A stretch of DNA of 64,000 nucleotides from an uncultured Sphingomonadales bacterium (GTDB lineage Bacteria > Pseudomonadota > Alphaproteobacteria > Sphingomonadales > Rhodothalassiaceae), in contig CANMND010000006.1 of assembly GCA_947499155.1 (NCBI GenBank), positions 124,001-188,000 on the forward strand, written 5' to 3'. Position 1 is the first letter of the stretch. Every line of letters starts with the position of its first letter. Of this stretch, positions 14,603-33,116 are shown piece by piece. The notes under the pieces were generated by a model. It was given only the letters and a program-made list of their open reading frames with translations. It did not search any database and was not told the origin of the DNA. The translations under genes were made by a program, and so were the position numbers.

Positions 14603-14614
14603 GATGCTATTCCT

Positions 14615-15088: not shown

Positions 15089-15095
15089 ATCTGCC

Positions 15096-15710: not shown

Positions 15711-15723
15711 AGCTGTATCCTTT

Positions 15724-17082: not shown

Positions 17083-17461
17083 GATGTTTGCCCCCGTTAC
17101 TAAGACGCTCAGGGAAACCATGACGGACTGAGACAGCGTTGAATTTCCGGATAAGCGCAGCCTCTAAATCAATGTCGGCGCGTTCGGCTAACAAAGTCAG
17201 ATAAATGAGCGTGTCAGCTATTTCGTCGGCCAGATGGTCCGTCAACTCGTCGGCGCTTTTGGTGTTCCCAACTACTCCGTCACGGGAACGGTTCAGCTTT
17301 TTAATGACGTTGCAGACCTCTCCGGCCTCACCGAGTGCGGCGCATGCCCAGTCGGACAGGCTCCATGCGTTAAGGCTCCCGCCGTGCCATTTTTTTGCAC
17401 GTGAGACACTGGCCTGAACCAGTTCTTGAATGGTCAGTGCTGGAATGGGTTTAGGCTGCAT
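17072..17461 (-). CDS. MazG-like nucleotide pyrophosphohydrolase
   Basis: 129 aa from ATG 17461. It has the all-alpha NTP-pyrophosphatase motifs: AALGEAGEVCNVIKKLNRSR (first acidic EExxE-type helix) and LADEIADTLIYLTLLAERA (second, ExxD). These bind Mg2+ and cleave NTPs or (p)ppGpp-related nucleotides. Phages carry MazG to change nucleotide pools during infection. It overlaps the MuB-like gene by 11 bases, so it is expressed with the transposition proteins. Confidence 0.82.
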   Translation of the reverse strand: MQPKPIPALTIQELVQASVSRAKKWHGGSLNAWSLSDWACAALGEAGEVCNVIKKLNRSRDGVVGNTKSADELTDHLADEIADTLIYLTLLAERADIDLEAALIRKFNAVSVRHGFPERLSNGGKHHEL

Positions 17462-18233
17462 TGGCCGCCCCCCAGCTTTGCGAGACGATGATGGGCTTGC
17501 CGGTGGTGCGGTCATTCATCAACACTTGCCCGGCCATTTCCGCACAGCCGACTTCGCGAAGACCATTGCGGTGCGCCACACGCTCAACCGAGGCGATGGC
17601 CTCTTTGATTTCACGCACAAAGCCTTTGGAATAGTCATGGGTAAGGGCGATCAAATCGGCCTGAACGGTGACGTCGCACAGCCCGTTCACCATGCCGGCC
17701 ACATCATCGCGGGTGAGCGGCGTAAATTCGACATATTGCCCGATGCGGCTGGTCACTTGCGGGAAGTGCTTCAGCCCATGGCGAACCTTGCCCATACCGA
17801 CAAGCAGGAAGGGGATTTCCAGAAAGTCGGATAAGTCGCGTAAAGACGACAACATCTTGTCGGACCGCGCGATATAATCGACTTCATCGACAATAACCGC
17901 AAAGTTTTCCCCCGCCCGTGCCGCCGCATCCGCGCGGGCGGCAAGGGTCTCCAGACATAAGGCAAAGCGCTTTTCAAAGCTATGCGGCGGATGGGCGATA
18001 TTAAGCGCAGCCAGGAGTTCCGACAACATCCAGTTAGGCGTCCATTCCTTTTTGGCGCGGACAAAAGGGCAATCGTTTTGTGCCGCGAACCAGGACAGCG
18101 CCCTGGATTTTCCAAGACCGGGCAGGCCGTCAATCACCATCAGGCAGGCTTCCCCGGCACCGCGCCTTTCAAGGGCAGATAAGCCGACCATCAGCTTTTG
18201 CACATTTTCTGTTTTGACAAAGACAGGCTTCAT
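17451..18233 (-). CDS. MuB-like AAA+ transposition ATPase
   Basis: 260 aa. Walker A is DGLPGLGKSRALSW, Walker B is FAVIVDEVDYI, with a sensor-like IPFLLVGMGK and an arginine in the HFPQVTSRIGQYV region. In Mu, MuB coats target DNA, gives target immunity and delivers targets to MuA. The length fits the short MuB class of alphaproteobacterial transposable phages, lacking the long N-terminal HTH of Mu's 312-aa MuB. It lies just after the transposase gene. Confidence 0.88.
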   Translation of the reverse strand: MKPVFVKTENVQKLMVGLSALERRGAGEACLMVIDGLPGLGKSRALSWFAAQNDCPFVRAKKEWTPNWMLSELLAALNIAHPPHSFEKRFALCLETLAARADAAARAGENFAVIVDEVDYIARSDKMLSSLRDLSDFLEIPFLLVGMGKVRHGLKHFPQVTSRIGQYVEFTPLTRDDVAGMVNGLCDVTVQADLIALTHDYSKGFVREIKEAIASVERVAHRNGLREVGCAEMAGQVLMNDRTTGKPIIVSQSWGAANAA

Positions 18234-18266
18234 GCGTAGTTTTCCTCCTCTGTTTGCGGCTCGACT

Positions 18267-20420
18267 TCAGGCGGCTAGTTCCAATAACGGCCTGGGGTCG
18301 AGCCCTTCCAATTCCAGCATCTGCCGGAACGTTCTTTGATTCATCATGGTGGCAAGCTGCTTGCGGTCATGGCTGGTGACCTGACCCGTGTGCCCGATCA
18401 TCCAGCGCACCCACTCCAAATCATCCCGAAATATCGGGCGGCCATTGGTGGCTAAGGCTGGCGCCGACGCATTTTCCATCCGCGCCAGCATCGCGTCCGC
18501 TTTTTCGCGCTCAACCACGTTGAGCGTTTCAACATGCTGATAGTCTATTTCCAAAGGCGCGCCCTTGGCTTCGGCAATGATTTCCGCGCGTTTTTCCTCA
18601 ACCCGGCGTAAACGGCCTTTAGTCCGGTCTTCCAGAACCTTTTCCTGATAAGATTTGGCGGTACGCAGGGTGTGTGCATCGAAATAGGGTTGCCGGTTGC
18701 CATCCAGTTCAGCCACGGCAATCAAGCGCTGGTCGCGGATATCGCGTACCCACACCCGGCTGGCGTCATGGATGTCATAACCCACCAGCACCTGCTCACC
18801 GTGCCAGGCTTCCAAATCCTGACTGAAATACATGCCGCCTAAAATCTGCACTTCGCAGCGCGCGCATTTACGGCGCTCATAAGGCCGCATCAGGTCGGCG
18901 GCATCGTGATGGTCGATGGTGATAGCTTCGCCGCCTTCCGCTTCCCACTTGTCCCACATTTGCGTGGGCGTCAGATGTTGCCAGACTTTCGTCTGCGGGT
19001 TGCGAACCCGTGGCAGGCCGGAATGTGGTGTATGGTTGTAAGCGTCAATGGCGTCTTGAACGGCGGCCCGGAAATCTTCCCAGGTCACTTCAAAAGCAGC
19101 GCTCTGATTCGTACGATTTGCCAGGCGGCGCTCTTTATCCACAACGCGCAGATATTGCTTGTCCTGATCGGGGCCGACATAGGTGGGCAGTGATTTTGCA
19201 AGGGGCACCCACAGTGTTTTATTGAGACGTTCAATCAGCCCGCGCGCCTGCGAATTATAAGGTAAGCTGGCCTTGGGCGTGATACCCCAGCGGGCGTAAA
19301 AGCCTGTTGCCTGATCTTCAAACACATTGGCGCGGAAGCCTGCACCATTATCTGTGTACCAGATTGCGGGAAGGCCATGATGGCGGCCATCCTTGCGGTC
19401 GATCATGGCGGACGACAGTGCTTCTAAAACACCCATGGCATTTTCGGCCAGCCCCACTGACCAGCCAACGACATAGCGGGTATAGGCATCGATTACGGCT
19501 GTGATTTCCGGCCGGAAGGGCTGACCGTGGAAGGGGTGCTGCACCTTGGCCTTAAAGGTATGGCCGTCCGCACTGTAAATCGCTGTCGGCCATAATTCGC
19601 TTGTGTCGCGGCGGGTGAAGGCCTTCAGTGCCTTTAACTCCTGCGGCCCCATGCGCCCGCGCATCCGTTCGACAACAGACAATTTATCTTTCAGGAAACG
19701 ACGCGCCTTGTCATAGCTTGGCACAGCGATGTTGTCCGGCAGGACTGCGGGCAAATCTTCAATAACGGATTGCAAGCTGGGCTTGTTCGGGTTGGCCCAC
19801 AGGTCCAGCAGGAAGGGCACCCATTCCGGCATGGTTGCATCAGGCTTGCGGCTGTCGGGCGCCAAGGCTTTTGCCCCGCCGTTCTCGCAAGCCTTAATCC
19901 AGTTATAGATGGTTGCGCGGCTGACTACGCGCCCACCTTTCGCGGCCTTTACGCGCGTGCCGGATTTGGCATTGGCAACAGGCAGCAGTTCAGCCAGGTC
20001 CGGGCGCAACTCTCCAGCCTTGGCCAGTTCTATAAATTGGCCGATTGCGCGACTGCGCCCGACGGTTACAGCAAGTCGGTTGATTTCCGCAACAATGGCT
20101 GCACGTGCTTCCATGGTTGCGCACTGCCGCGCATTTAAATTGGTGGTCGCGCGCGTCACCTTACGACTTTCACGCACGACCGGTGCCGTGGTTTCCGGGC
20201 GCGTCGCCAACGTGTTGGCCGCCAGTCTGGAAAGCAGCGCCAATTGCTGGCTGCGGGATAGGTTGGATAGATGATATTCAAACCCGCCACCCCGGCCTTC
20301 ACGCGGGCGGGATTTCCAGCTTTCCGCAGCTATCCGCTTTTGAACGCCACGTTTCGTATCTGGAAAGTCTGGTAGTCTGAATTCCGCCAATTCTGCCGCC
20401 GTGAACCACTCATGCATCAT
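18267..20420 (-). CDS. MuA-like DDE transposase
   Basis: 717 aa from ATG 20420 with AAGGAG upstream. N-terminal Mu-type DNA-binding domain (EWFTAAELAEFRLPDFPDTK, GVQKRIAAESWKSR), middle HTH region, and an RNase-H-like catalytic core with the three acidic residues: D in IYSADGHTFKAKV, D in AIWYTDNGAGFR, and E in SQARGLIERLNKTLW. The C-terminal part after residue 560 would contact MuB. It catalyses replicative transposition and integration. The left end of the early operon is the Ner-like gene upstream. Confidence 0.95.
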   Translation of the reverse strand: MMHEWFTAAELAEFRLPDFPDTKRGVQKRIAAESWKSRPREGRGGGFEYHLSNLSRSQQLALLSRLAANTLATRPETTAPVVRESRKVTRATTNLNARQCATMEARAAIVAEINRLAVTVGRSRAIGQFIELAKAGELRPDLAELLPVANAKSGTRVKAAKGGRVVSRATIYNWIKACENGGAKALAPDSRKPDATMPEWVPFLLDLWANPNKPSLQSVIEDLPAVLPDNIAVPSYDKARRFLKDKLSVVERMRGRMGPQELKALKAFTRRDTSELWPTAIYSADGHTFKAKVQHPFHGQPFRPEITAVIDAYTRYVVGWSVGLAENAMGVLEALSSAMIDRKDGRHHGLPAIWYTDNGAGFRANVFEDQATGFYARWGITPKASLPYNSQARGLIERLNKTLWVPLAKSLPTYVGPDQDKQYLRVVDKERRLANRTNQSAAFEVTWEDFRAAVQDAIDAYNHTPHSGLPRVRNPQTKVWQHLTPTQMWDKWEAEGGEAITIDHHDAADLMRPYERRKCARCEVQILGGMYFSQDLEAWHGEQVLVGYDIHDASRVWVRDIRDQRLIAVAELDGNRQPYFDAHTLRTAKSYQEKVLEDRTKGRLRRVEEKRAEIIAEAKGAPLEIDYQHVETLNVVEREKADAMLARMENASAPALATNGRPIFRDDLEWVRWMIGHTGQVTSHDRKQLATMMNQRTFRQMLELEGLDPRPLLELAA

Positions 20421-20492
20421 GGCTCTCCTTGCGGCAGGGATAGTCTTTGGCAATAGTACCGCAGCCTTGACCATCACAAAGGAGGCATTGCA

Positions 20493-20912
20493 GTGTCGCT
20501 CTACACCTATTCCAAAGCCTCTTTGGCAATTGGCGAACAGTTAGCAGCCACCCTCGAACCAGAAGAATATGAGGATGTGTATAGAATAATGAGCCGGTTC
20601 TCCTATGCCGAATGGCAAGACTGGCGGACCCGGCATGCTGCCGCTGTAAAAAAGCTTGCAACCGCAACGCCATCCGCTCAGCGCATGCTGGTGAAAAAGC
20701 ATAGCCGGGAGGACAAAATGCTTCACGTATTTGCTGCGGTTCAATATTGCTTTGAAGCCTTTGAGATACTGGACGCGATTGCGCGGATTGAGATTGGTTC
20801 TTCTTATCGAGAGATGATCGGCATTGCGCATGACACACTTGGCCAGATAAACGACAATCGCGTTTCTCGTTGGCCGTGGAAGGGGCCAATGACATATCGG
20901 GACGACACTTAG
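20493..20912 (+). CDS. Unknown + strand gene inside the early operon
   Basis: 139 aa starting at GTG 20493, with a very good Shine-Dalgarno (AAAGGAGG, 8 bases spacing). It starts MSLYTYSKASLAIGEQLAAT and is helical and soluble, with KHSREDKMLHVFAAVQYCFE and AIARIEIGSSYREMIGIAHD. It points against the flanking early genes and overlaps the end of the next gene by 4 bases. I recognise no family. It may be lysogenic cargo such as an exclusion or defence factor; only position suggests this. Confidence 0.65.
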   Translation: MSLYTYSKASLAIGEQLAATLEPEEYEDVYRIMSRFSYAEWQDWRTRHAAAVKKLATATPSAQRMLVKKHSREDKMLHVFAAVQYCFEAFEILDAIARIEIGSSYREMIGIAHDTLGQINDNRVSRWPWKGPMTYRDDT

Positions 20913-21403
20913 GCATGGGCCATCCCCCTCATAAGTGGTAGACTTTCCATAACGACAAGCTGCTGTTCACGGGCTTGCGCAATGATGAATTGCAGTTGCC
21001 CCAGCCGTGCAAAGGTGGCTTGTCGCTGCTCCAATACCGCGCACCCCGCAGCAGCGCCGATCATTATCAACAGTTCGGGGCCTAGAATGGCGGAAAGGGC
21101 AGGCAACAAATCGGCGGGCAGCTTGTTGGGCCGCGACGCCCCTGTGTAGGTATCCAGCATCGCTTTGGTAATGCGCCGCCCGACACGCAGTGTCAGCATT
21201 GCGGCAATCTGTTCGCGGTCAAAGGGCGCGGCGTCAATTACGCGATTGAGGCAATCACGAACGGCGCGGTCATAATCCATCGCACCTTTTTCTTCGGACG
21301 GCGCTTGTGGCACTTCGATCAAGTCGGCCCCATCCAGCATGGCCAGAAAGTCCGACTGGGCGGGATGCGAAACGGTCCTGGAAGGCGTGCGGCGTCTGGT
21401 CAT
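20909..21403 (-). CDS. Early phage protein, possible DNA-binding regulator
   Basis: 164 aa between the Ner-like gene (overlap 4 bases) and the MuA-like gene. It has an RDCLNRVIDAAPFDREQIAA - LRVGRRITKAMLDTYTGASR segment that resembles the helix-turn-helix of phage CII/YmfL-type proteins common in Mu-like prophages of this class, and a C-terminal helical part ending in QAREQQLVVMESLPLMRG. Function unknown. Confidence 0.55.
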   Translation of the reverse strand: MTRRRTPSRTVSHPAQSDFLAMLDGADLIEVPQAPSEEKGAMDYDRAVRDCLNRVIDAAPFDREQIAAMLTLRVGRRITKAMLDTYTGASRPNKLPADLLPALSAILGPELLIMIGAAAGCAVLEQRQATFARLGQLQFIIAQAREQQLVVMESLPLMRGMAHA

Positions 21404-21708
21404 GCCGCCTCTCCAATTTGAACATTGTCGTTCGCCGCATTCGTGCTATGTTCTCTATTGGAACAGCGGAGAAACGGACGGCGCTGCCCGTTGGGAAAAT
21501 ATCGATCAGGCCATATGGCTTCGGGGGTGGTTCCAAGAAAGGCCGCCAGTTTGGCCTCAATCTTGGGAAAGGCAGGTCGCGCAAGGGTGACACTAACGGC
21601 CGCCTGTTCATACCCCCACCGCTTGGAGAGGGACCGCAATGTCTCTCCTTTCATGCGGATGGCCGCCTTGATTTCTTCCCGGTGCATGCCGCGTACAACC
21701 GCTTTCAT
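21400..21708 (-). CDS. Ner-like early repressor (Nlp/SfsB family)
   Basis: 102 aa. GGAGG lies 7 bases before ATG 21708. Residues 8-70 match the Ner/Nlp family: MHREEIKAAIRMKGETLRSL, then SKRWGYEQAAVSVTLARPAF and AAFLGTTPEAIWPDRYF. In Mu, Ner is the first early gene and turns down both the early promoter and the repressor promoter. Here it is also the first gene after the early promoter region and faces the S24 repressor, exactly as expected. Confidence 0.85.
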   Translation of the reverse strand: MKAVVRGMHREEIKAAIRMKGETLRSLSKRWGYEQAAVSVTLARPAFPKIEAKLAAFLGTTPEAIWPDRYFPNGQRRPFLRCSNREHSTNAANDNVQIGEAA

Positions 21709-21726
21709 GCTGCTTCCTCCAATTTG

Positions 21727-21750
21727 ACCGGCAGGCCCGCCGGTTTTTTT
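21727..21750 (+). terminator. Hairpin with T-run, + strand
   Basis: ACCGGC and GCCGGT with a 6-base loop, followed by seven T's (21744-21750). It would stop + strand transcription that enters the operator region from the left, such as from the gene at 20.5 kb, before the repressor gene. Confidence 0.6.
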
Positions 21751-21778
21751 GGGTGTTCAAGTTCAACTACTTGCATGA

Positions 21779-21807
21779 ACAATGAGCGAAATATCGCTAA
21801 CTGTCAA
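21779..21807 (-). promoter_or_regulatory. Candidate phage early promoter
   Basis: On the minus strand a perfect -35 (TTGACA, complement of 21802-21807) is followed after 17 bases by CATTGT (complement of 21779-21784), a weak -10 that keeps the conserved second A and last T. The leftmost operator palindrome fills the spacer, so a bound repressor would block it. It would drive ner and the early operon. Confidence 0.5.
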
Positions 21808-21839
21808 CGAAATAATGCTAATTCGAGCGTTATTTCGCT
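21785..21839. promoter_or_regulatory. Three operator-like palindromes between Ner and repressor genes
   Basis: Three related 14-mers: AGCGAAATATCGCT (21785-21798, perfect palindrome), AACGAAATAATGCT (21806-21819) and AGCGTTATTTCGCT (21826-21839). Their starts are 21 and 20 bases apart, two DNA turns, so bound dimers would sit on one face. They are the likely sites for the S24 repressor and/or Ner. Confidence 0.7.
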
Positions 21840-21874
21840 TTAAGCGACAAAGAATATTAAATATCAGGCGGTTA

Positions 21875-22531
21875 ATGAAGATGAGCGAAGGTTTTGTCGA
21901 GAGGTTAAGGCAGCTGATTGGCAAGTCGAGTGCGCGTTCCTTCGCTCAGAAGGCTGGTCTTAGCGATAGTACGCTCAGATCAATCTTAAGCGGTTCAAAG
22001 CCAACGCTTGACGTTCTCATCTCAATTGCGGCGGCCGGAAATGTTTCTATTGATTGGTTGGCTACGGGCAAAGGTGGCCCGAACGCTAAAATTATAGATA
22101 TGGATGAAGAAGTCACCTGCCGTGTGCCGATATATTCTGTCGAGGCTTCGGCAGGTAATGGCGCTTTAAACGCTTTTGAGCACGTCCATTCTTACATGGA
22201 TATCCCGGCAGCATATATTCGTGATCGACTGGGTGTGAGCAGCAAAAAAATTGAAGGCATATTTGTTGTAGGTGACAGCATGGAACCCACCTTGGTTGAA
22301 GGTGATATTGCGTTTGTAGACCGTTCGGCTATAGCGCAATCAGGAAGGGCTGAGGGTGTATATGTCTTTCGGTTTAATGATCAACTGTATATCAAACGCC
22401 TTCAGCATCAGGGGCCAAAGCTTGTTGTAAAAAGCGATAACGCCGCATATGACCCATGGGAGATAGAGGAAAAATTGCTGCCAGATTTGGTGATCCTGGG
22501 AAAAATTGTCGGCTCATTTCGCCGTACTTGA
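21875..22531 (+). CDS. S24-type phage repressor (CI/LexA-like)
   Basis: 218 aa from ATG 21875; the frame is open further up, but that part lies over the operators. Residues 1-60 hold an HTH (SSARSFAQKAGLSDSTLRSI). The C-terminal half is a S24/LexA peptidase domain: possible Ala-Gly cleavage site in VEASAGNG, nucleophile Ser in VVGDSMEPTLVEGD, and Lys in LYIKRLQHQG. It should keep the prophage silent and be inactivated through RecA upon DNA damage. It is divergent from the Ner-like gene. Confidence 0.88.
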   Translation: MKMSEGFVERLRQLIGKSSARSFAQKAGLSDSTLRSILSGSKPTLDVLISIAAAGNVSIDWLATGKGGPNAKIIDMDEEVTCRVPIYSVEASAGNGALNAFEHVHSYMDIPAAYIRDRLGVSSKKIEGIFVVGDSMEPTLVEGDIAFVDRSAIAQSGRAEGVYVFRFNDQLYIKRLQHQGPKLVVKSDNAAYDPWEIEEKLLPDLVILGKIVGSFRRT

Positions 22532-22815: not shown

Positions 22816-23001
22816 AGTAAAATGGCAGAAAAGGCGCCGAAACGCCCGGATTTCCGGGGCTTTCGTGGTCGTTCACCTCTTTATTTCACCGTCCAGAATG
22901 TTCCACTCCCCTACATGAATGACAGATGCCGGTTGCGCAAAAGCTACCCGGAAACTTCACCAGCAGGCCAGACTTCAGAATGATCCTGTTGCTGAAACAG
23001 G

Positions 23002-23415
23002 TTACAGGCGGTGCTCGAACAGACTTTCAATGATCGGGCAGTCAGGCACATCGCCACCCTCGCATTGTGAAGATATGTCCTTCAAAGTGCGCTCCAGTTT
23101 TCGCAGATCGGCAATCTTTTGCTTCACGCTTTCAATTTGTTTGCGCGTGAGCGCCAGAACGTCGCCGCAGCTATAGTCGTTGGAGTCGACGAGACTGAGC
23201 AGGCTGCGTAATTCATCGATGGAAAATCCAAGGTTTCGCCCGCGCAGAATAAAGCCCAGCCTTGCCTGATCCTGGGGTCCATAAAGCCTGTGACCTGCCT
23301 GCGTTCGTTCAGGCGGGTTGAGCAGACCGATGGTCTCGTAATACCGGATGGTTTCGATATTGCACCCTGAAGATTCGGCCAGTTTTCCACGTTTCATCAT
23401 CTTGCTTCCGGTCAT
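23002..23415 (-). CDS. merR: MerR mercury-responsive regulator
   Basis: 137 aa. N-terminal MerR HTH (AESSGCNIETIRYYETIGLL), then the dimerisation helix. The three mercury-ligand cysteines are visible: in SNDYSCGDVLAL, and in SSQCEGGDVPDCPIIESL. The last two are 8 positions apart, one fewer than in Tn501 MerR. It is divergent from merT, with the shared promoter between them, and should both repress without mercury and activate with it. Start codons at 23415 or 23400 are both possible. Confidence 0.93.
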   Translation of the reverse strand: MTGSKMMKRGKLAESSGCNIETIRYYETIGLLNPPERTQAGHRLYGPQDQARLGFILRGRNLGFSIDELRSLLSLVDSNDYSCGDVLALTRKQIESVKQKIADLRKLERTLKDISSQCEGGDVPDCPIIESLFEHRL

Positions 23416-23439
23416 TTTGGATTTGCCTGAAAAAATTAC

Positions 23440-23470
23440 TTGAACCTGTAGTTACTACAGAAATTATAAA
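23440..23470 (+). promoter_or_regulatory. MerR-type mer promoter/operator
   Basis: TTGAAC (23440-23445) and TATAAA (23465-23470) are separated by 19 bases, the overlong spacing typical of MerR-controlled promoters. The spacer holds a perfect palindrome CTGTAGTTACTACAG, the expected MerR site. Transcription should start around 23476-23478, at the merT ATG. Confidence 0.88.
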
Positions 23471-23477
23471 GATGTTC

Positions 23478-23837
23478 ATGGAAAAGAACATCAAACAATC
23501 AGGCGGCTTATTCGCGACCGCCGGCACGCTTGGGGCAGTCCTTGCATCCTCCTGCTGCATCGCTCCACTCCTGCTCGTTTCTCTCGGTATCAGCGGGGCG
23601 TGGATCGGCAATTTCACGGCACTGGACCCCTATAAATGGTATTTTGTTGCAGCGACGGTCGTGTTCCTGGGTGCTGGCTTCTGGCACGTCTATTTCAGGC
23701 GTGTGCCTGAGTGTGACGATGGTTCTTACTGTGCGCGGCCACATTCCTCACTACTCACCAAAATGGTGCTTTGGATTGGGACAATTCTTGTTGCCCTCAC
23801 AACCACAGTCGATTGGTGGGCACCATTATTTTATTAG
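23478..23837 (+). CDS. merT: MerT mercuric ion inner-membrane transporter
   Basis: 119 aa with three membrane spans. The first has the Cys pair (LASSCCIAPLLLVSLG) that takes Hg2+ from MerP, and the loop has a second pair (ECDDGSYC), as in classical MerT. ATG 23478 coincides with the predicted transcription start, so the mRNA may be leaderless; the in-frame ATG at 23472 would lie upstream of that start. It is first in the mer operon. Confidence 0.93.
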   Translation: MEKNIKQSGGLFATAGTLGAVLASSCCIAPLLLVSLGISGAWIGNFTALDPYKWYFVAATVVFLGAGFWHVYFRRVPECDDGSYCARPHSSLLTKMVLWIGTILVALTTTVDWWAPLFY

Positions 23838-23847
23838 GAGACTTGAG

Positions 23848-24192
23848 ATGAAGAAGACTGTCATGGCGATCATTGGCGTGCTGGCCCTGGGCACCGTTGC
23901 AGCGGGAGTCTCCAGCCTGTCATCATCGGATACCTCACTGATCTCCAGTCAGGCCCATGCAGCAACTTTAAGCCAGACCTTTGCAATTGAGAAGATGACC
24001 TGCGCGAGCTGTCCCATTACGGTCAGAAAAGCGATGCAGCGTGTGGATGGCGTAAAATCCGTGTCGGTTGATTTTGAGGCAAAAACAGCCACGGCAAGTT
24101 TTGATCCAGATATCACCGATATTTCCGCAATCGCTGCCGCTTCCACAAATGCAGGCTTTCCGGCGCATGCCAAAGCAGGGAAGGTGCAATGA
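23848..24192 (+). CDS. merP: MerP periplasmic mercury-binding protein
   Basis: 114 aa from ATG 23848, TAGGAG upstream. A signal peptide (MKKTVMAIIGVLALGTVAAG) is followed by an HMA domain with the metal site EKMTCASCPITVRKAMQ and the family-typical DGVKSVSVDFEAKTA strand. It collects Hg2+ in the periplasm and passes it to MerT. Its stop overlaps the merF start (ATGA). Confidence 0.95.
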   Translation: MKKTVMAIIGVLALGTVAAGVSSLSSSDTSLISSQAHAATLSQTFAIEKMTCASCPITVRKAMQRVDGVKSVSVDFEAKTATASFDPDITDISAIAAASTNAGFPAHAKAGKVQ

Positions 24193-24422
24193 ATGAGCGG
24201 TCACTTCTGCGCATCAGTATTATCGGTACGGTCATTACCGCTTTGTGCTGTTTCACACCTGTACTTGTCATTCTGGCGGCAGCAGTGGGTTTGTCTGCCA
24301 TCACTGGCTATCTGGATTACGTCTTGCTGCCGACACTTGTCTTTTTCGTTGGATTGACAGTTTACGCTGTCTCGAGGCGAAAGAATGATCAAAAACACCC
24401 CCGACAACAGGAAGACTCATGA
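24189..24422 (+). CDS. merF: MerF mercury transporter
   Basis: 77 aa with two membrane spans, the first with the vicinal cysteines TALCCFTPVLVILAA typical of MerF. It is an additional inner-membrane Hg2+ importer. Start and stop codons overlap the flanking merP and merA by 4 bases each (ATGA), so the three are translated as a coupled set. Confidence 0.9.
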   Translation: MNERSLLRISIIGTVITALCCFTPVLVILAAAVGLSAITGYLDYVLLPTLVFFVGLTVYAVSRRKNDQKHPRQQEDS

Positions 24423-25846
24423 ATACGTTAGATATGTCAGGCAATAGCGGGCGCTATGACCTTGTTATCGTGGGTGCCGGATCAGCTGGCTTTTCGGCTG
24501 CAATAACCGCAGCGGGGAGCGGAGCAAAGGTGGCCTTAATTGGCCATGGCACCATTGGCGGTACATGTGTGAATTTCGGGTGCGTCCCTTCCAAAACAAT
24601 GATACGCGCCGCAGAAGCCCTTCATGCTGCCAAATCTGCACGTCGCTTTCCCGGAATTGAAGGAGACGCCCGGCTTGTGAATTGGGCGGAGCTTGTGGCG
24701 TCGAAAGATGGTCTCGTCGGCGGGTTGAGGCAAAAGAAATATGCTGACCTGTTGCCGGAATATGAAAATGTCGATTATTTCGATGAAGGGCCGGCTCGTA
24801 TTGTTGAGGGCGGGGTTCATATTGGCGAACGCATAATCCTGGCAACGAAGATCATTATTGCGACAGGGGGTCGCCCGTCGCTGCCCCCGATCAAAGGGAT
24901 TAATGAGGTTTCAACGCTCGACAGCACCCAATTACTTGATCTGAAAGTACTGCCCAGGAGCATGATTTTCATCGGAGGCGGCTATATCGGGTCAGAATTG
25001 GCCTTGATGATGTCGAGAATGGGTGTGGATGTCACAATCATCTGCCGTTCACGCCTGTTGCCCGGTGCAGAGCCGGAAATTTCAGATGCATTGGCTGAAT
25101 CCTTCCGCGCTGAGGGAATAACAACATACTGCGGAAGTACCTATTATGCGTGCAGGCAAGATGCGTCTGACGTCTCAATCTGTATCGAACATAAAGGCGA
25201 AAGGCTGGATCTCGCCGCCGAAAGTCTGGCTGTGATGACAGGCCGGACACCAAACACTGAAGGTTTGGGGCTGGAAGAGGCAGGTGTAACGCTTGATAAG
25301 CGCGGGGCGATTGTCGTTGATGATTATATGCAAACGGCCAATCCAGATATTTATGCAGCAGGTGATGTGACCAACCGCGATCAATTTGTCTATATGGCAG
25401 CATATGGGGCAAAACTTGCGGCCATGAACGCGGTAGTAAAGGGGTCTGAGAGGTATGATAATTCGGCCATGCCATGGGTCGTGTTTACCGATCCTCAAGT
25501 CGCGGGCGTGGGGTTGAGTGAGGCAGAAGCCAGACAGGCGGGTTTTGATGTCAAAACATCACTTGTCCCATTGGATCAGGTGCCGCGCGCATTGGCAGCA
25601 CGTGATACCAGGGGCCTGATTAAGCTTGTAGCAGACAGGAAGACCGACAAGCTGCTGGGCGGTCAGATTATGGCTCCTGAAGGCTCGGACAGCATTCAGA
25701 CTCTGGCCATGGCATTAAAGTTTGGTATGACGGCAAAGAGGCTTGGGGAAACAGTTTTCCCTTATCTCACGACAGTTGAAGGATTGAAGCTTGCGGCCCA
25801 GACATTCGACAAGGATGTCGCCAAACTCTCGTGCTGTGCGGGTTAG
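24419..25846 (+). CDS. merA: Mercuric reductase MerA
   Basis: 475 aa flavin disulfide reductase that reduces Hg2+ to Hg0 with NADPH. FAD site DLVIVGAGSAGFSAA, redox-active cysteines GTCVNFGCVPSKTM, NAD(P) site FIGGGYIGSELALM, second FAD motif NPDIYAAGDVTN, and the C-terminal vicinal cysteine pair (LSCCAG). The N-terminal HMA domain found in many MerA proteins is missing, as in the short form. It overlaps merF by 4 bases. Confidence 0.96.
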   Translation: MNTLDMSGNSGRYDLVIVGAGSAGFSAAITAAGSGAKVALIGHGTIGGTCVNFGCVPSKTMIRAAEALHAAKSARRFPGIEGDARLVNWAELVASKDGLVGGLRQKKYADLLPEYENVDYFDEGPARIVEGGVHIGERIILATKIIIATGGRPSLPPIKGINEVSTLDSTQLLDLKVLPRSMIFIGGGYIGSELALMMSRMGVDVTIICRSRLLPGAEPEISDALAESFRAEGITTYCGSTYYACRQDASDVSICIEHKGERLDLAAESLAVMTGRTPNTEGLGLEEAGVTLDKRGAIVVDDYMQTANPDIYAAGDVTNRDQFVYMAAYGAKLAAMNAVVKGSERYDNSAMPWVVFTDPQVAGVGLSEAEARQAGFDVKTSLVPLDQVPRALAARDTRGLIKLVADRKTDKLLGGQIMAPEGSDSIQTLAMALKFGMTAKRLGETVFPYLTTVEGLKLAAQTFDKDVAKLSCCAG

Positions 25847-25849
25847 TAT

Positions 25850-26791
25850 ATGACTGGATTGGTATTTATGATTGGTTCGTCGATACTTGGCATTGAACAC
25901 AAATTGACCAGCACACGCCTTGCGGCCACACTGGGGATTGTCAGCGTTTTTGCTTTCTCATCACCTGAGTATGCATATGCCGCGCCTGTTACATTCAATT
26001 CCGGATTGCCAGTAAGCCAGGGCCATTGGGTGGGCCGCGAGCAGGTGATTTACGGCGAGGCGGGTCTTAATGGCGATAACATTCGGGAAATCAGGTCTGT
26101 AACAGTTCTTGGTTATGGTGTGACGCCGGACTTGGCGTTCTTTGGTATTTTGCCCGTCATAATCCGTGACATTGATTTGGCGTCTGGTGACGAACGCCAT
26201 GCGACCGGCATTGGCGATACACAGGCTTTTGCACGCTATACGGCATATAAGAAGGACTTTTCCGGCGGCACTTTTCGAGTTGCACCGTTTCTCGGGCTTG
26301 AGTTGCCAACTGGCAAAAACCGTAAATCCGACAGCATGGGGCTATTGCCGCCGGGCCTGCAGCCGGGATCAGGCTCCTGGGATGTTTTTGGCGGGGCGGT
26401 CGCTTCGTGGGCGACACTCGACTGGAATATGGACGGACAAGTTTCCTGGCAAGCCAATACGCGCGCCGATGGCGTAAATGGCGGTGATATGTTTGAAGTC
26501 GATCTTGCCATCTACAAACGCTTGCTGCCTGCGGAACTAAGTGCGGACACGTCCGGCTTTTTGCTGGGCGGTCTGGAATTCAATTACCAGGATGAAGGCC
26601 GTACCGGCATTGGCGGCGTCATTGATCCGAATTCTGGAGGGCAGCGGCTCTATGTGACGCCGGGCCTGCAATATGCCAGCAGGCTCTGGGTTCTTGAGGC
26701 CGCTGTGCAAATACCTGTAACCCAAAGCCTGAACGGAACGAACTATAGACGGGACTTTGCTTTTCGGCTCGGCTTGCGATTAAATCTTTAA
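25850..26791 (+). CDS. Outer-membrane channel-like protein in the mer operon (MetA-pathway/phenol-degradation transporter-like)
   Basis: 313 aa, 3 bases after merA. A signal peptide (AATLGIVSVFAFSSPEYAYA) precedes a beta-barrel pattern with VTPDLAAFF-like strands, LGLELPTGKNRKSD and a C-terminal DFAFRLGLRLNL ending in an aromatic/hydrophobic strand. It resembles the PF13557 transporter group. In this operon it could let mercury compounds cross the outer membrane; that is inference. ATG 25868 is an alternative start. Confidence 0.7.
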   Translation: MTGLVFMIGSSILGIEHKLTSTRLAATLGIVSVFAFSSPEYAYAAPVTFNSGLPVSQGHWVGREQVIYGEAGLNGDNIREIRSVTVLGYGVTPDLAFFGILPVIIRDIDLASGDERHATGIGDTQAFARYTAYKKDFSGGTFRVAPFLGLELPTGKNRKSDSMGLLPPGLQPGSGSWDVFGGAVASWATLDWNMDGQVSWQANTRADGVNGGDMFEVDLAIYKRLLPAELSADTSGFLLGGLEFNYQDEGRTGIGGVIDPNSGGQRLYVTPGLQYASRLWVLEAAVQIPVTQSLNGTNYRRDFAFRLGLRLNL

Positions 26792-26809
26792 AGGACAGTG
26801 GGGTTTATC

Positions 26810-27121
26810 ATGAAGAAATATCTGGCAACGTTTATGTTTTTGTTGCTGACGGCTGCACCCGCCCTCGCCCTCGCCAATGACGTGGAATACCTCATAAGCA
26901 TTGACGGCATTACCTGTCCGTTCTGCGTCGCAACGTCGGAAAAGGCTTTAATGAAAATCGATGGTGTGAAAGCCGTTTCGTCAAGCCTCAAAGAGGGCAC
27001 GATTACTGTCTGCGCCGATGATAAAAAGGTCTCGTTTACTGACGAGCAGCTGACTGAACTGTTCAAGAAGAAGGGCTTTACCTATCGCGGCATGGAAAAA
27101 GGCGGGATGTGTGAAGCGTAA
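26810..27121 (+). CDS. Second exported HMA protein (MerP-like)
   Basis: 103 aa from ATG 26810. Signal peptide (MKKYLATFMFLLLTAAPALA) and an HMA domain with SIDGITCPFCVATSEKAL and DGVKAVSSSLKEGTITV. It differs strongly from the first MerP and ends with a further cysteine (GGMCEA). It stands between the channel gene and a second MerT-like gene, suggesting a second periplasmic-to-cytoplasm metal relay. Confidence 0.8.
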   Translation: MKKYLATFMFLLLTAAPALALANDVEYLISIDGITCPFCVATSEKALMKIDGVKAVSSSLKEGTITVCADDKKVSFTDEQLTELFKKKGFTYRGMEKGGMCEA

Positions 27122-27199
27122 TGGGCACAGGGTTCATCATATGGGACCCCTGTGGTTCTTCAATTGGCCCGTCCATACAACAGGATATGGGGTGCGCCC

Positions 27200-27628
27200 A
27201 TGCCTGTGAATGATCCGCTTGTGAATAAAGTCGTAGACGACAATCAGCCCCACCCTCGTAAATGGGGCTGGTTCATCCTGTTCACCAGTACGACAACACT
27301 GGTTTGTTGTGTCTTGCCGATTGTTCTGGTCAGTCTCGGTTTTGGTGCGACTGTGGCGTTGATGTACGGCGAACTGCCATTTCTGGCCTTTTTGGGTATC
27401 CATAAGGAATGGACCTTTGCCCTGACGGCGCTGATCCTTCTTGCAGCCGCGTGGGCGCTTTATAGACCCGGTCGTACGTGCCCTGCTGATCCGGAGTTGG
27501 CTAGAGCCTGTCAGTCCGCTGACAAGTGGAACCGGCGGCTGTTTCTCGCAGCCTTGGGAATCTGGATTGTCAGTTTCTTTGCTGCTTATTTGCTCCTGCC
27601 CATAGCTGAACAGCTGGGACTTCTTTGA
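27200..27628 (+). CDS. Second MerT-like membrane transporter
   Basis: 142 aa from ATG 27200. Three or four spans; the first carries the cysteine pair in TTLVCCVLPIVLVSLGFG, as MerT does, and a loop has Cys residues (PGRTCPADPELARACQS). The N-terminal 30 residues are a longer hydrophilic tail than in MerT. With the HMA protein before it, it forms a second MerP/MerT-type pair at the end of the operon. The 106 bases after it hold no recognisable gene. Confidence 0.78.
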   Translation: MPVNDPLVNKVVDDNQPHPRKWGWFILFTSTTTLVCCVLPIVLVSLGFGATVALMYGELPFLAFLGIHKEWTFALTALILLAAAWALYRPGRTCPADPELARACQSADKWNRRLFLAALGIWIVSFFAAYLLLPIAEQLGLL

Positions 27629-27734
27629 AACAACTGCGTCTTTCGTTTTCCATTCAGGAAGCGCAGGCCAAGGGTGTAACCTCGACGCGCAACAAAGACG
27701 CGAAGATACAGGCTAGGTAAATACGGCTTTATTA

Positions 27735-28619
27735 TCAGTTGTTTGCCAGGGCCTTGAGATAGGCGGCGATGGCATGACGGTCTTCTTTGGGCAGATGTCC
27801 CATATTGGCGATCACTGACACCATCTGGCCGCCGGCACTGTCATAATCAGGGGTGAGGCCGGTTTCCAGATAATAGGCGATATCCGTCGCACTCCAGTCC
27901 ATTTTTTCGGGTGATATTGCCGGTATCCGGCCCTTGCCGGAGGGGTTTGGCGCGCCTGCCATCCACTGGCTGCGATCCAGCCCGCCAGTCGCGGTGCGGG
28001 GTGTGTGGCATTCGGCGCAATGGCCCAGTGCCTCCACCAGGTAGCGACCGCGTTCGAGTTCAGGGGTGTCTGCATTTTCCAGCACCCAGCCTGACGTCAT
28101 ATTCAGCCGTTTCCACAGCCCGATACCCCGCGTCAGGTTATAGGGGAACCTCACTTCATGAGGCAGGCTCGTCGCATCCGACGGGGGTAGGGTGTCCAGA
28201 AATGCTTTGAGATCAGCGATAGCCTGCGGCTGCATGTGCTGATAGCTGCCATAGGGAAAAGATGGATAGTAATGGCGGCCTTCGGGCGAGGTGCCGTGAA
28301 GAAGGGCGTTACCCAGATCCTCAACACTCCAACCCGCCAGCCCTTCGGCCGTTGGTGAGATATTAGGCGCTATGAAGGTACCAAAGGGGCTTTCAATACG
28401 ATAGCCGCCAGCAAGTACGAGCCGCGCATCGCCCTTGGCCTCTGGCGCTGCATGGCAACTGGCGCAGCCTCCAGCCCAAAAGATGGTTTCACCGCTTTCT
28501 GGATCACCCTGCAGGCCCGTGAACAGGTCAGCGTCCACACTTTGCGGGCGTGTCAGAAACCAGAATGCAACGGCCCCCAATAAGATCAGAATGAGCAGAT
28601 AGCGCAGCAGGGTTGCCAT
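27735..28619 (-). CDS. Membrane-anchored diheme cytochrome c
   Basis: 294 aa. N-terminal anchor (LLRYLLILILLGAVAFWFLT), then two heme-binding motifs: GGCASCHAAPEAKG and GHCAECHTPRTATGG, with Met ligands likely in the regions around FIAPNISPTAEGLAGWSVED and VSVIANMGHLPKEDRH. The layout resembles cytochrome c subunits of membrane dehydrogenases. It probably works in the periplasm with the cytochrome c' gene upstream on the same strand, 54 bases away; partner enzymes are not in the window. Confidence 0.88.
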   Translation of the reverse strand: MATLLRYLLILILLGAVAFWFLTRPQSVDADLFTGLQGDPESGETIFWAGGCASCHAAPEAKGDARLVLAGGYRIESPFGTFIAPNISPTAEGLAGWSVEDLGNALLHGTSPEGRHYYPSFPYGSYQHMQPQAIADLKAFLDTLPPSDATSLPHEVRFPYNLTRGIGLWKRLNMTSGWVLENADTPELERGRYLVEALGHCAECHTPRTATGGLDRSQWMAGAPNPSGKGRIPAISPEKMDWSATDIAYYLETGLTPDYDSAGGQMVSVIANMGHLPKEDRHAIAAYLKALANN

Positions 28620-28673
28620 AGTTTCTCCGTCAGGTGGGACAGCTACCAGCCGTCCCGCCCTTTATATGAGGTC

Positions 28674-29159
28674 TCAGTCCTTTTTGACCCTGTAGTCCTC
28701 GTGGCAGCCACCACATGACTTGGCCAGCGGTCCCATCGCGCCACGCAAGGAGTCCAGACCTGCACCTGCGGCTGTGGCCATGGCGGCACTGGTTTCAATC
28801 ATCCTTTGTGCACTTTCACCAATAGCGCTGTCTTCAGCCCAGATTTTGGCCAGTGCTTCAGTCCGTTCCACCCCCAGGGTTTCCATATCTGAACCTGATG
28901 GCCAGTAGCGGGATTCGTCCATCCGGGCGAGAGCGGCCAGATTTTCCGCAGCGGCAGTCGCGGCTTGTGCATCATAGCTGATTTCGCCTTTGGCCATGGC
29001 ACCCAGAAGACCCAGATTAAAGGCGTTTAGATGCATATGTGACTGACGTGCCTTGATGGCCGATGCGATGGCCGGGTCGATGTCGTCCTGGCTGAAGGCT
29101 GTTGTGGCCACAATGCCTGCAACCAAAAGGCCGCTGATCAAAAGAAGTACGGACTTCAT
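28674..29159 (-). CDS. Cytochrome c'/c-556 family protein
   Basis: 161 aa. Signal peptide (VLLLISGLLVAGIVATTAFS), a four-helix-bundle-like middle (ARQSHMHLNAFNLGLLGAMA, AAAENLAALARMDESRYWP) and one heme motif near the C-terminus, KSCGGCHEDYRVKKD. The late CXXCH is diagnostic for cytochrome c' type proteins (PF01322). Such proteins transfer electrons or bind NO. It is first of a two-gene unit with the diheme cytochrome. Confidence 0.88.
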   Translation of the reverse strand: MKSVLLLISGLLVAGIVATTAFSQDDIDPAIASAIKARQSHMHLNAFNLGLLGAMAKGEISYDAQAATAAAENLAALARMDESRYWPSGSDMETLGVERTEALAKIWAEDSAIGESAQRMIETSAAMATAAGAGLDSLRGAMGPLAKSCGGCHEDYRVKKD

Positions 29160-29660: not shown

Positions 29661-32600
29661 TTGTCATTGATTTTCCAGCAATTGTCGCAGCAGGTGCGAA
29701 GTCAGGCTCTTCTTAAAACCTTGTATGGTGGTGCTGGAGCCAACACAGCCAGTCTTTCAAATTCCGGCGATGCTCTTTGTTTTTTTCCAGGGCGTCGCAC
29801 CAGAGATGACGGATCATTAGGCTCAAATAATGGGCGGGTGATACTAAAGACGTCTTCGCCTCTGGCAGACCAGGTTGTGCGATGGCGTATCGTCACAAGA
29901 GGCGGGGACGTGGTGGACGAAGTTGCCACATCCGCACCACATGAGATTGAACTTCTTGCAGCACATTCAGGTCGCTTCCGCCTGGAATTGACACTTGAAG
30001 GCGCGACGCTGGAGCCTTGCAGATATGAAGTATCGGCTCCCGCATTTGTGTCTGTTATGCTTGAACCCAATTCAATCGGTGTCGTTCTTGATGAGCTTGG
30101 GGTTGCAGCGGACGGGCAGCAGCGCCAGACTTTGGTCGATGGCCTGGTGGCAGTGGCGCGCAGGGTCGCAGCCCACGCTCTTCGCCCCATGAATGTAAGG
30201 CTGTTATGGCCGGACGATGATATTCCCGCCCACTTCTTGCCATCTGCTCCAGTCCAAGCCCCTATGACGCCCTGTCTTGCGACCGCAAAAGCTGTTGTAG
30301 AGGGCGAGGATAACAATTCCCTGCAGTACTATCCGGGTCTTCGCCTTCTCCATGTAGGCATTCCGCAAAAAGTTTTGCCCAGCATTCCGGTTTTTGAAGA
30401 GATTTCGAATATCCTTGATGCGCACTTTGTAGCCTTCAAAGATTCCATTCTGAATGATCTGCGTGCGCGGTTCGGCGGGCGTCTGAATGCAGCGCTTGAC
30501 GAACTGGATGCCATGTTTACGCCGGAAAGCGTCGATACGGGCTGGGGGACGTCCAGCCTGATGGAGGCTTATGGAATTGGCCAGGTGTTGTTTGGGGGCG
30601 GGGCCAGACAATTTGATGGTGAAGCCGTCGGTGCTGGCAGTTCAGTTGCACACCAGATTCTGGCCACTTTGGCTGATGCAGCACATACAGCAGCATGGGA
30701 CGTGGCCAGTGATGCCACCAGCCTTTATGTGGAAATGGCAGGCCGCATGCTTGGGACGCAGATTGCTGTGGCGACGCTCAGGCTGACTGGATTGCAGGCC
30801 CGCGAGGTCGCGCTGCCTGATCCGGAAAAACCCGTACAGACCTTGCACACAGACCTGCTTGATCCGGCACCTTCAGTGCCAGAGCGGGATTTTCTTGGCC
30901 TGTATCGCCCGGAAACAAATGGAATAGCCAGATCTTTGGATACGCTTGCAGGTGATCTGGCAACACAGGTCAGTCCTGCAGATTCGTCACGCTGGGTTGA
31001 TCTGTGCAAAACAATCACGGCACCTACTGCAACACTGATCGGGGCAGAGCCGACCACAAAATATGATGCGCTGGCCGGTCTGGTATCCGAACGGAGCTTG
31101 TCGGATGTAAATGCACTTGCCGGCACATTGCCGGCTCCATATGGGCCATACACATTGCGGTGGGGCGATCAGGACAGGCCGGACGATGCACATGGGGATG
31201 CCCTTCCTGTCTATGGCGGCAAGACGTTTTCGGCAGATGAAAGGCCAGTAGAGACGCGGGAAATTGAATTGCTGCAAGCGGACCTGTTGCGGGCAGGAAT
31301 TACGCTGGGCCAGCGCACCATTGGAAAATTTGGATACCGCAGATGGACGGCCAATGAGGATAAGTGGGATGGAGCGCTGGGGGCGCAGCCAGTCCGTGCC
31401 ACCTCTTGGGAGCGCAAACCCGATGACCCGGAAAGCTATCAAGTGAATATCAGGGCATCCCGTCCCCACTGGAATGAATTATGTGATGGCGATACCAGTA
31501 TCGCAGTTCGGGAGTTTCAGATCGCTGAAACCTATCCGCGGGGCGTGATGGAAGAGGTATCCCCTGAGCCGGTTTTCGTCAAAAGGCTTCGTGATGTCTT
31601 TCATGATGAAGAGCAGGTGAGGCCAGATGGTGACGCACTTGCCCAGCCCAATGGCAATGTGAATGGCATGCTGTCACCTGCCATGGCGGATAAGGTGAGG
31701 ACCTGGGCCTTTTCCCGACGGCGCATACCGGCAGTTGTCATAGGTGGATCGCGCAATGATGCTTATGGAGCTGTGGATGCAGACCATCCATTTATTCAGA
31801 CTGCCATGTCGGCGGCACTCGATGCGCACGCCAGGATAAGCAACAATTACCGGTTTTATTCTGTGGACAAGACAGGTCGTTTTGGTGCGACGGATGAGCC
31901 TGTCAAGCTTGGGCGTCCACAATATTCCGACGGTACAGCCCGTCGCGGATTTTGGGGCGGCCTGTGGCACCCGGATGATGATGAAATGCCTCAAAAGGCA
32001 TTTACGGCTGCACATACATTCGGCCCTGTCGACTGGGAGCTGTCTCCTGATCTTGCCGATGAAGACCGTTCACGGCTTAGAAGAAGGCAGAGCGCATTTC
32101 GTATGGTTGCTGCGCTGGCCAAGGTGGAGAGCATTTCGTACTGGGATGGCTTTAATGCATGGGACGATGCTATATTTTCCTGGCCTCCCTTTCATTATAC
32201 CTTGACCCTTCGCGCGAACAGTGGCGATGGCGGCGTAACGGCCAGTCCCAACCTGATGGGCGGCGTCATAGAATTCATGCGGAATCCTCCTGATGAGGTG
32301 CTTGAAGGTGCCTACCCGGCACCTGAATCATCTGGTGATCCTGATGCAGACGCCGCTGCACTGGCGGACGTTGTCGCGCATCGTCAGGCCTTAAAGACGC
32401 GTATGCGTGAGTGTTATTGGGATAATTTTGGTGTCTATGGTGTGGGTGCCAGTGCCATTACTTCGACGACTTCGCCAAACTCATTTGTAACCCTGTCCGG
32501 CCTGATTGAAGCACAGGACTCCAATCGGACGGTTGACATGAATCTGGTATGGCAGAGAAACGGAACCGGTCTGCCACAACAGGCTCTTTATCAGTCCTAT

Positions 32601-33116
32601 CAGCAGTGGTTCAGAAGTTGGAACTGGGGCCAGCGTTTTGCACTTCATTTGCGAAACAAGCCCCTACTTCGCGCCATGACATTTGCTTATTCTCTTCACT
32701 GGGCCCATGGGGTTCTTGCTCTGAATAGTCATTGGCGAGGCCAATTTGGCATCGCGACAAATGGGAATGCGGTTCTCAGGTCCGAGCGAGGGCGTGTTGT
32801 TTACATACGTCTTTATATTCGTGCGCTGGAACATGCCGCTGACGCTCGTCGGGCGCTTGGACGCCTACGCGGGAACGCTGCGTCCCTTGCACAATTCCAC
32901 AGAAATACGACGGAAGAGCAGATTGTTGATGCGATGGTCAATTCTGCGACAGGCGCACTGAGGAGAACAACGAGCACAGCTCGCGACTTTGACGTTCCTG
33001 ACGGCCTCGGGCGCCCCTCGTCTGAAGACCATGGGGATAACGCAGCTGCAGACTTTTCTCAGGTTCGCAATGAGCTTTTGAGAGATGTGATGACTGCAAA
33101 TTGGGACAATCCATGA
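29661..33116 (+). CDS. Giant-cluster protein 1 (1151 aa), peptidoglycan-binding-like segment
   Basis: Starts at TTG 29661 with GGGGGAG upstream. No signal peptide. Residues about 35-125 look like a beta-sandwich. Residues about 534-620 have the outline of a PG_binding_1 repeat (EIELLQADLLRAGITLGQ to SIAVREFQIAETYPRG), interrupted by an insert. Residues about 815-860 include ALAKVESISYWDGFNAWDDA and IFSWPPFHYTLTLRANSGDG, which recalls lysozyme/chitosanase-like modules of large bacterial proteins; catalysis is not shown. The C-terminus is helical and charged. The gene overlaps the next by 4 bases. I do not recognise a named family. Confidence 0.85.
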   Translation: MSLIFQQLSQQVRSQALLKTLYGGAGANTASLSNSGDALCFFPGRRTRDDGSLGSNNGRVILKTSSPLADQVVRWRIVTRGGDVVDEVATSAPHEIELLAAHSGRFRLELTLEGATLEPCRYEVSAPAFVSVMLEPNSIGVVLDELGVAADGQQRQTLVDGLVAVARRVAAHALRPMNVRLLWPDDDIPAHFLPSAPVQAPMTPCLATAKAVVEGEDNNSLQYYPGLRLLHVGIPQKVLPSIPVFEEISNILDAHFVAFKDSILNDLRARFGGRLNAALDELDAMFTPESVDTGWGTSSLMEAYGIGQVLFGGGARQFDGEAVGAGSSVAHQILATLADAAHTAAWDVASDATSLYVEMAGRMLGTQIAVATLRLTGLQAREVALPDPEKPVQTLHTDLLDPAPSVPERDFLGLYRPETNGIARSLDTLAGDLATQVSPADSSRWVDLCKTITAPTATLIGAEPTTKYDALAGLVSERSLSDVNALAGTLPAPYGPYTLRWGDQDRPDDAHGDALPVYGGKTFSADERPVETREIELLQADLLRAGITLGQRTIGKFGYRRWTANEDKWDGALGAQPVRATSWERKPDDPESYQVNIRASRPHWNELCDGDTSIAVREFQIAETYPRGVMEEVSPEPVFVKRLRDVFHDEEQVRPDGDALAQPNGNVNGMLSPAMADKVRTWAFSRRRIPAVVIGGSRNDAYGAVDADHPFIQTAMSAALDAHARISNNYRFYSVDKTGRFGATDEPVKLGRPQYSDGTARRGFWGGLWHPDDDEMPQKAFTAAHTFGPVDWELSPDLADEDRSRLRRRQSAFRMVAALAKVESISYWDGFNAWDDAIFSWPPFHYTLTLRANSGDGGVTASPNLMGGVIEFMRNPPDEVLEGAYPAPESSGDPDADAAALADVVAHRQALKTRMRECYWDNFGVYGVGASAITSTTSPNSFVTLSGLIEAQDSNRTVDMNLVWQRNGTGLPQQALYQSYQQWFRSWNWGQRFALHLRNKPLLRAMTFAYSLHWAHGVLALNSHWRGQFGIATNGNAVLRSERGRVVYIRLYIRALEHAADARRALGRLRGNAASLAQFHRNTTEEQIVDAMVNSATGALRRTTSTARDFDVPDGLGRPSSEDHGDNAAADFSQVRNELLRDVMTANWDNP

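Follow-up and report, generated by a model that had tools for sequence, protein, structure and literature searches.

A candidate soft-metal envelope cassette with its own outer-membrane barrel behind merA in an Iodidimonas mer operon

Directly behind merA in the 64,000-nucleotide stretch of DNA analysed here (the window, from a genome of 2,814,840 bases), three genes encode a predicted outer-membrane barrel (OMP), a small metal-binding protein (HMA) and a MerT-like inner-membrane protein (T2), and the same OMP-HMA-T2 trio is found as a separate cassette of Alpha- and Gammaproteobacteria. The trio gives the impression of a portable kit for metal transport, joined in this genome to a mercury operon. 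We give nearly even chances to the reading that it is a portable, MerR-controlled envelope module for soft metals which, in its place behind merA, most likely widens the inward route of Hg(II) to MerA. That is, OMP, as a channel of the COG4313 type, would pass soft, thiol-loving metal species through the outer membrane, HMA, as a small Cys-rich carrier, would bind the metal in the periplasm, T2 would hand it from Cys pair to Cys pair across the inner membrane to the cytoplasm, and MerA would reduce the delivered Hg(II) there. The trio would be read here from the mer promoter PmerT along with merTPFA, the mer operon having captured it, and the cargo would be Hg(II), possibly in neutral or lipophilic form. 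The computed basis comprises the gene content, the predicted fold of OMP, the conserved cysteines, the position, the MerR-type promoters of free-standing cassettes and the recurrent mer neighbourhood; co-transcription, the inward direction, mercury as the cargo and a physical cooperation of the three proteins are what we infer.

In the table of Boyd & Barkay 2012, the mer genes comprise merR, arsR, P, T, C, F, E, G, H, B, D and the TRASH genes (PMC3466566), and the introduction of a 2021 survey gives a similar set (PMC8261052); neither that table nor that introduction names an outer-membrane mer protein, and the remark of the initial annotation that such a protein lies outside the standard mer set agrees with the tabulation. 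The mer scheme of the 2021 survey has mercury diffusing across the outer membrane (PMC8261052). We recognised no description of the trio in searches of the open-licence literature, and we rate as new here the joining of MerP/MerT-like transport to a predicted outer-membrane channel, in cassette form. Coupled to a MerP/MerT-like pair and governed by MerR-type promoters, such a channel would provide bacteria with an entire path for a metal, sensor included, and one may then ask which role MerT-like proteins have where MerA is missing. The features concerned are the following.

23002-23415, minus strand: merR, a MerR-family regulator with metal cysteines C83, C118 and C126 (best model TIGR02051, 120.6 bits, under its cut-off of 150.85)
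23440-23470, plus strand: PmerT, with TTGAAC, a 19-bp spacer holding the dyad CTGTAGT-T-ACTACAG, and TATAAA (read from the sequence)
23472-23837, plus strand: merT (PF02411, 99.8 bits, cut-off 32.9)
23848-24192, plus strand: merP (PF00403, 59.7 bits; TIGR02052, 81.4 bits, cut-off 92.55)
24189-24422, plus strand: merF (PF11431, 79.1 bits, cut-off 24.3; NF033565, 102.7 bits)
24419-25846, plus strand: merA, without an N-terminal HMA domain (TIGR02053, 523.8 bits, cut-off 454.45)
25850-26791, plus strand: OMP, predicted outer-membrane barrel of the COG4313/PF13557 type (AlphaFold2 model and fold match)
26810-27121, plus strand: HMA, small metal-binding protein with a CPFC motif and two more cysteines (PF00403, 32.8 bits, cut-off 24.8)
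27200-27628, plus strand: T2, MerT-like inner-membrane protein with cysteines C36/C37 in helix 1 and C94/C104 in a loop (hhalign to MerT)

The mer operon has a MerR-type promoter with a 19-bp spacer and dyad ahead of merT and a MerA that ends in SCCAG, and the solved structure closest in sequence to the merR product is 4ua1. The open reading frames behind merTPFA sit where the initial annotation had placed them, in the order OMP, HMA, T2, and the channel-like gene does lie 3 bases behind merA (25846 is the last base of merA and 25850 the first of the OMP frame). An alternative in-frame start of OMP is the ATG at 25880; the HMA frame spans 26798-27121, with the ATG at 26810 as the probable start, and the T2 frame (27152-27628) could start at the GTG at 27152 or the ATG at 27200. 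Sequence scans found no promoter of their own for the three genes on the plus strand behind merA, in line with the operon that had been proposed. Specifically, a sigma-70 scan of 22900-28000 gave a single plus-strand match, at 25118 within merA (five matches in total vs. 4.4 in shuffles), and a scan of the merA end and the two intergenic gaps gave no MerR-type site, under a strict -10 rule that also missed PmerT, which was identified by eye. Because the trio has neither a regulator nor a promoter of its own here and lies only 3 bases behind merA, it is expected to be read from PmerT; that is, judging from the spacing and the absence of a second promoter, OMP, HMA and T2 should be co-transcribed with merTPFA. 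The G+C content of the trio genes (49.0-53.4%) is similar to that of the mer genes (51.9%) and of the window (53.5%). As to the promoter itself, merT is possibly leaderless, with the -10 element of PmerT ending at 23470, the annotated ATG at 23472 and the next in-frame ATG at 23478 (by eye).

Taken alone, the OMP sequence finds no counterpart in Pfam at E ≤ 1 and just one NCBIfam model, at E 0.22, which is chance level, and it gives no match to PF13557 (cut-off 22 bits). The AlphaFold2 model built from 33 aligned sequences is nevertheless a barrel (pLDDT 86.1), and its best match among solved structures is 4rl8, a COG4313 channel of Pseudomonas putida (Z 26.2, rmsd 2.3 over 242 residues), although the secretion channel FapF ties with it within about one Z unit. 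The 14 strand elements of the model are interpreted as the 12 barrel strands of the 4rl8 fold, and OMP would thus share this predicted barrel with the COG4313/PF13557 channels (Pput2725, 4rl8; SphA; TcpY). PF13557 is also matched at E ≤ 10 by 24 of the 33 aligned homologues (best E 1.1e-14; the window's OMP is not among them), and its cut-off is reached by all seven barrels tested from other loci (including L057), which are homologous or functionally equivalent to OMP; of the two barrels of L123, L123-b reaches it and L123-a does not. On the strength of the fold match we predict a COG4313-type channel for OMP, and the outer-membrane channel of the initial annotation is borne out at the level of the predicted fold. 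The profiles of OMP and T2 matched nothing among PDB sequences at E ≤ 1, a result that says nothing about their folds. COG4313 channels have been implicated in the uptake of hydrophobic molecules (PMC4493636), and the members discussed there are tied to hydrophobic organic molecules, with no metal-linked one named. Given the hydrophobic-channel character of these proteins, neutral or organic mercury can reasonably be guessed as the cargo. The copper protein PcoB (7pge) is likewise an outer-membrane barrel of a metal system, but its match to OMP (Z 14.3) is much weaker than that of 4rl8 and in the range of many unrelated barrels.

HMA and T2 look as if built to work like MerP and MerT, yet neither is assigned to those families, so that the "second MerP/MerT pair" proposed initially stands as a divergent, MerP/MerT-like pair with relay cysteines, both members being under the family cut-offs. 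HMA shares with MerP an HMA domain with a CxxC motif and looks exported (the apparent signal peptide was judged by eye from the sequence), but it falls below the MerP cut-off (TIGR02052, 41.9 vs. 92.55 bits) and carries two extra invariant cysteines; all four (C36, C39, C68 and C101) are invariant in the ten aligned trio members. Against the PDB, copper-ATPase and CopZ domains match the HMA profile better than MerP does. T2 is far under the MerT cut-offs (PF02411, 16 vs. 32.9 bits; NCBIfam MerT, 16.4 vs. 150 bits), although profile comparison relates it to MerT (hhalign probability 96.9%, E 1.6e-10), with which it shares the Cys pair of helix 1 and the Cys pair of the loop. In the T2 model, a helix at residues 22-45 holds the vicinal pair C36 C37; a search of this model against the PDB gave 15 matches at E ≤ 10 and none at E ≤ 0.001, and says nothing about the fold. 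The cysteines of both pairs are invariant in 40 of 40 aligned sequences. Among the best 80 of 187 T2 loci (below), the helix-1 pair is present in all 80, which the search pattern partly imposed, and so is the loop pair between helices 2 and 3, with 7-11 residues in between, which the search did not impose; the loop cysteines are nine residues apart in 79 of these 80, as opposed to five residues between them in the MerT of the window. By position, HMA and T2 share one transcription unit here with the mer genes. MerT is known as an importer, and it is from this likeness that an inward direction would follow; an organomercurial cargo, too, is putative.

To place the trio among genomes, 84,980 named species, each represented by a single genome, were scanned with the T2 alignment; 187 relatives were confirmed and the best 80 kept. 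In 63 of these best 80 loci, OMP, HMA and T2 share a strand and lie within 2.5 kb, which makes the three-gene grouping more than chance; HMA and T2 occur together in 72, and a MerR gene lies within 3.5 kb in 40 (neighbour genes were called by profile matches at E ≤ 1e-3, some of them low-scoring). A barrel gene of either of two clusters is found on the same strand within 3.5 kb in 71 of 79 loci from this set. Four pairs of contigs were counted twice (L028/L049, L030/L053, L031/L113 and L037/L085, the last pair having shared but not letter-identical sequence). Among 99 relatives including the window's genome, 21 have an OMP match at E ≤ 0.001, and T2 matches are found in 15 at E < 1e-15 and in 20 at E ≤ 0.001, the T2 counts of the class and phylum searches being lower bounds because no more than 10 candidates were scored in each genome. 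When the loci of relatives were laid out, they showed OMP-HMA-T2 without merA nearby, frequently beside a MerR-family gene. In Gammaproteobacteria the trio is frequently enlarged by a further barrel, by a Thioredoxin_3 protein (23 loci) and by an ArsG/DsbD-like permease (18 loci); the MTH895/ArsE-like thioredoxin and the permease fall under the NCBIfam cut-offs in the representatives compared, and both genes are absent from the window's trio. Larger gammaproteobacterial clusters (the L068, L082, L112 and L123 type) hold two barrels, one or two HMA genes, the thioredoxin and the permease, and their MerR has Arg or Lys in place of the first metal Cys.

Upstream of trios, promoters of the MerR type (with a spacer of 19 or 20 bp and a dyad of six or more pairs) were found in 32 of 85 cases compared with 1.14 in single-base shuffles, or in 30 of 82 once three doubly counted contigs are left out. 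Two classes of dyad prevail, namely CTGTAG-NNN-CTACAG, as in PmerT, and TGGAGT-NN-ACTCCA. The operator of the free-standing trio of Iodidimonas muriae (I. muriae), a relative of the same genus, is identical to the window's PmerT at 89% over 28 bp and has the same dyad; its regulator has all three metal cysteines and scores equally with MerR (137.6 bits) and CueR (137.4 bits), both below cut-off. Among nine distinct alphaproteobacterial regulators adjoining a trio, seven keep the three cysteines (L028, L029, L035, L040, L048, L051 and L054), and the first one is replaced by Ser in L034 and by Arg in L030. The L062 regulator likewise has Ser at this position, and many gammaproteobacterial regulators near a trio have Arg or Lys there. 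Ser for the first Cys is a CueR-like feature and would go with copper-type sensing, and we take the L062 dyad to be of the CueR type as well.

The link to mercury genes is evident in the neighbourhood and weak at the level of whole genomes. A MerA ending in CC is encoded within 12 of the best 80 of 187 T2 loci, in six lineages at T2 identity ≥75%, where 0.03-0.05 loci would be expected at rough background rates (17 MerA copies in 99 genomes and 42 in 398, with assumed average genome sizes of 3.1 and 3.7 Mb, not matched for metal islands or Gammaproteobacteria). Because the orientation of the mer genes relative to the trio varies by lineage, this neighbourhood must have arisen more than once. 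In G025, the trio is preceded by a joined-on segment of merR, PmerT and a merT that breaks off after 22 codons; over 606 bp this segment matches the mer operon of G041 at 92% identity, and the G041 trio has a different regulator at the position of the G025 merR. An altered relative of the trio's own promoter persists in G025 between merT and OMP, so the trio there may use either promoter. In L066, from Marinicaulis, the neighbours of the mer genes are a truncated OMP and, behind it, HMA and T2. At the genome level, MerA over cut-off occurs in 5 of 15 T2-bearing relatives vs. 10 of 84 others (15 of 99 overall; one-sided p 0.049), which becomes p 0.11 without the window's genome, and in the phylum sample in 2 of 6 T2-bearing genomes (T2 in at least six) vs. 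37 of 398 overall (p 0.099, or 0.38 without the window's genome). Consequently, no genome-level dependence of T2 on MerA was found, 10 of the 15 T2-bearing relatives having no MerA over cut-off. We also considered the trio as a standard extension of alphaproteobacterial mer operons and rejected this, given that, of 16 regions around MerA, 13 were over the score limit (L184, L187 and L189 were not) and in none of these 13 operons does the trio lie within 3 kb, with the contigs of L178, L185 and L188 ending within about 1 kb behind merA. A protein of ~180 aa that starts with MATTDLKLE or similar follows merA in 8 of these 13 operons (L177, L179-L183, L185 and L186), and one representative of it has no Pfam match.

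These comparisons change what can be said of the proposal made initially. The "extended mer operon" fits the window, where the trio lies right behind merA, but most relatives have the trio as a cassette without merA, and often with a MerR-family gene of its own; for the same reason, its dedication to mercury is not supported as it was put. The gene order sought in related genomes does recur, sometimes with mer genes, while the 13 alphaproteobacterial mer operons are without it. The reading of capture and import is supported by the clustering of the trio, the kept Cys pairs, the OMP fold, the MerR-type promoters, the I. muriae operator, the MerA neighbours, and the arrangements in G025 and L066. 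Import, and mercury as the metal, are weakened by the weak co-occurrence with MerA, the regulators with Arg, Lys or Ser, the copper-like HMA profile, the copper neighbours and the tie between MerR and CueR scores, and capture by the mer operon is weakened by the relative of the trio's own promoter retained in G025. The main difficulty for import is the trios without MerA, since a metal-induced importer without the reductase is odd; with many such trios, an export route or another metal gains weight. Possible, if on the doubtful side, is a wider reading, in which the trio is a widespread and so far unnamed soft-metal conduit with its own outer-membrane channel that evolved apart from mercuric reductase, was repeatedly plugged into mer, and without MerA serves efflux or another metal.

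Alternatively, the trio might form an outward route, in which T2 would pass metal coming from the cytoplasm or the inner membrane to HMA in the periplasm and OMP would release it from the cell, serving behind merA as a second line of defence. Induction by MerR-family regulators would make sense under this scenario even in the ten T2-bearing relatives lacking MerA over cut-off, ArsG/DsbD-like permeases lie beside 18 of the best 80 of 187 T2 loci, and HMA-OMP pairs exist without T2, on a Marinobacter plasmid beside a P-type ATPase (OMP match over 34% of the query only), in L036 beside MerR, and in Acidibrevibacterium. However, T2 has the Cys layout of MerT, an importer, no energy source is visible, and uptake is what COG4313 channels are implicated in, even if one channel with this fold, FapF, works in secretion; on balance, we consider export unlikely.

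It is also conceivable, albeit distinctly unlikely in our judgement, that the trio serves for a different soft metal, Cu(I) or Ag(I) being the foremost candidates, and that its place behind merA merely lends it a metal-responsive promoter. The closeness of the HMA profile to copper domains in the PDB, the Ser-bearing regulators of L034 and L062 with the CueR-like dyad of the latter, and the frequent copper-type resistance genes near T2 loci (CusA-, CopA- and multicopper-oxidase-like, named by eye, as was the CopA-like ATPase adjoining the I. muriae trio) are consistent with this view. It is harder to reconcile with the I. muriae regulator and the six more alphaproteobacterial ones that keep the three cysteines (7 of 9 distinct), or with MerA neighbours ~200-fold above expectation, even though metal islands may cluster for general reasons.

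How the trio came to lie behind merA can be approached within Iodidimonas. The cassette stands alone in I. muriae JCM 17843 (contig NZ_BMOV01000013.1), where no MerA over cut-off was found, it is joined to mer in the window's genome, and a third member of the genus, G002, has MerA and gives no T2 match. With all three arrangements in one genus, a direct comparison is feasible. In a tree of 37 concatenated trios, those of the window and I. muriae are sisters (support 0.92), and at the DNA level they are 67-72% identical, much as other shared genes are (66-77%). A chance rearrangement that left the trio without a working link to mercury handling could draw on these data, which may reflect an old genus trait that merely moved, and on the shared 28-bp operator as a conceivable recombination site, but it is very unlikely given the intact frames, the kept conserved residues, the 3-base distance to merA, and the mer genes that adjoin the trio in other lineages in differing orientations. 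By the simplest history, a long-standing Iodidimonas trio with a MerR of its own ended up behind merA in the window's lineage, perhaps through recombination at the shared operator. In DNA comparisons with relatives, 46000-64000 of the window was matched (such matches favor conserved genes), and 1-18000 had no match in two relatives.

Finally, the surroundings of the operon offer a few observations of their own. Mu-like prophage genes lie beside merR (window 17451-22531):

17451-18233, minus strand: AAA/TniB-like protein
18267-20477, minus strand: Mu transposase
21782-22531, plus strand: CI/LexA-type repressor

On the other side, a gene pair for a diheme-type cytochrome c and a cytochrome c' (27735-29159, minus strand) lies directly behind the trio, the first of the two having no match in the four relatives searched. 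It is followed by three giant, overlapping or adjoining open reading frames (29661-41574, plus strand; 1151, 1792 and 1032 aa), which match nothing in Pfam or PADLOC at E ≤ 0.001, and by a gene for a protein with CDGSH iron-binding and cupin domains (41564-42610, minus strand).
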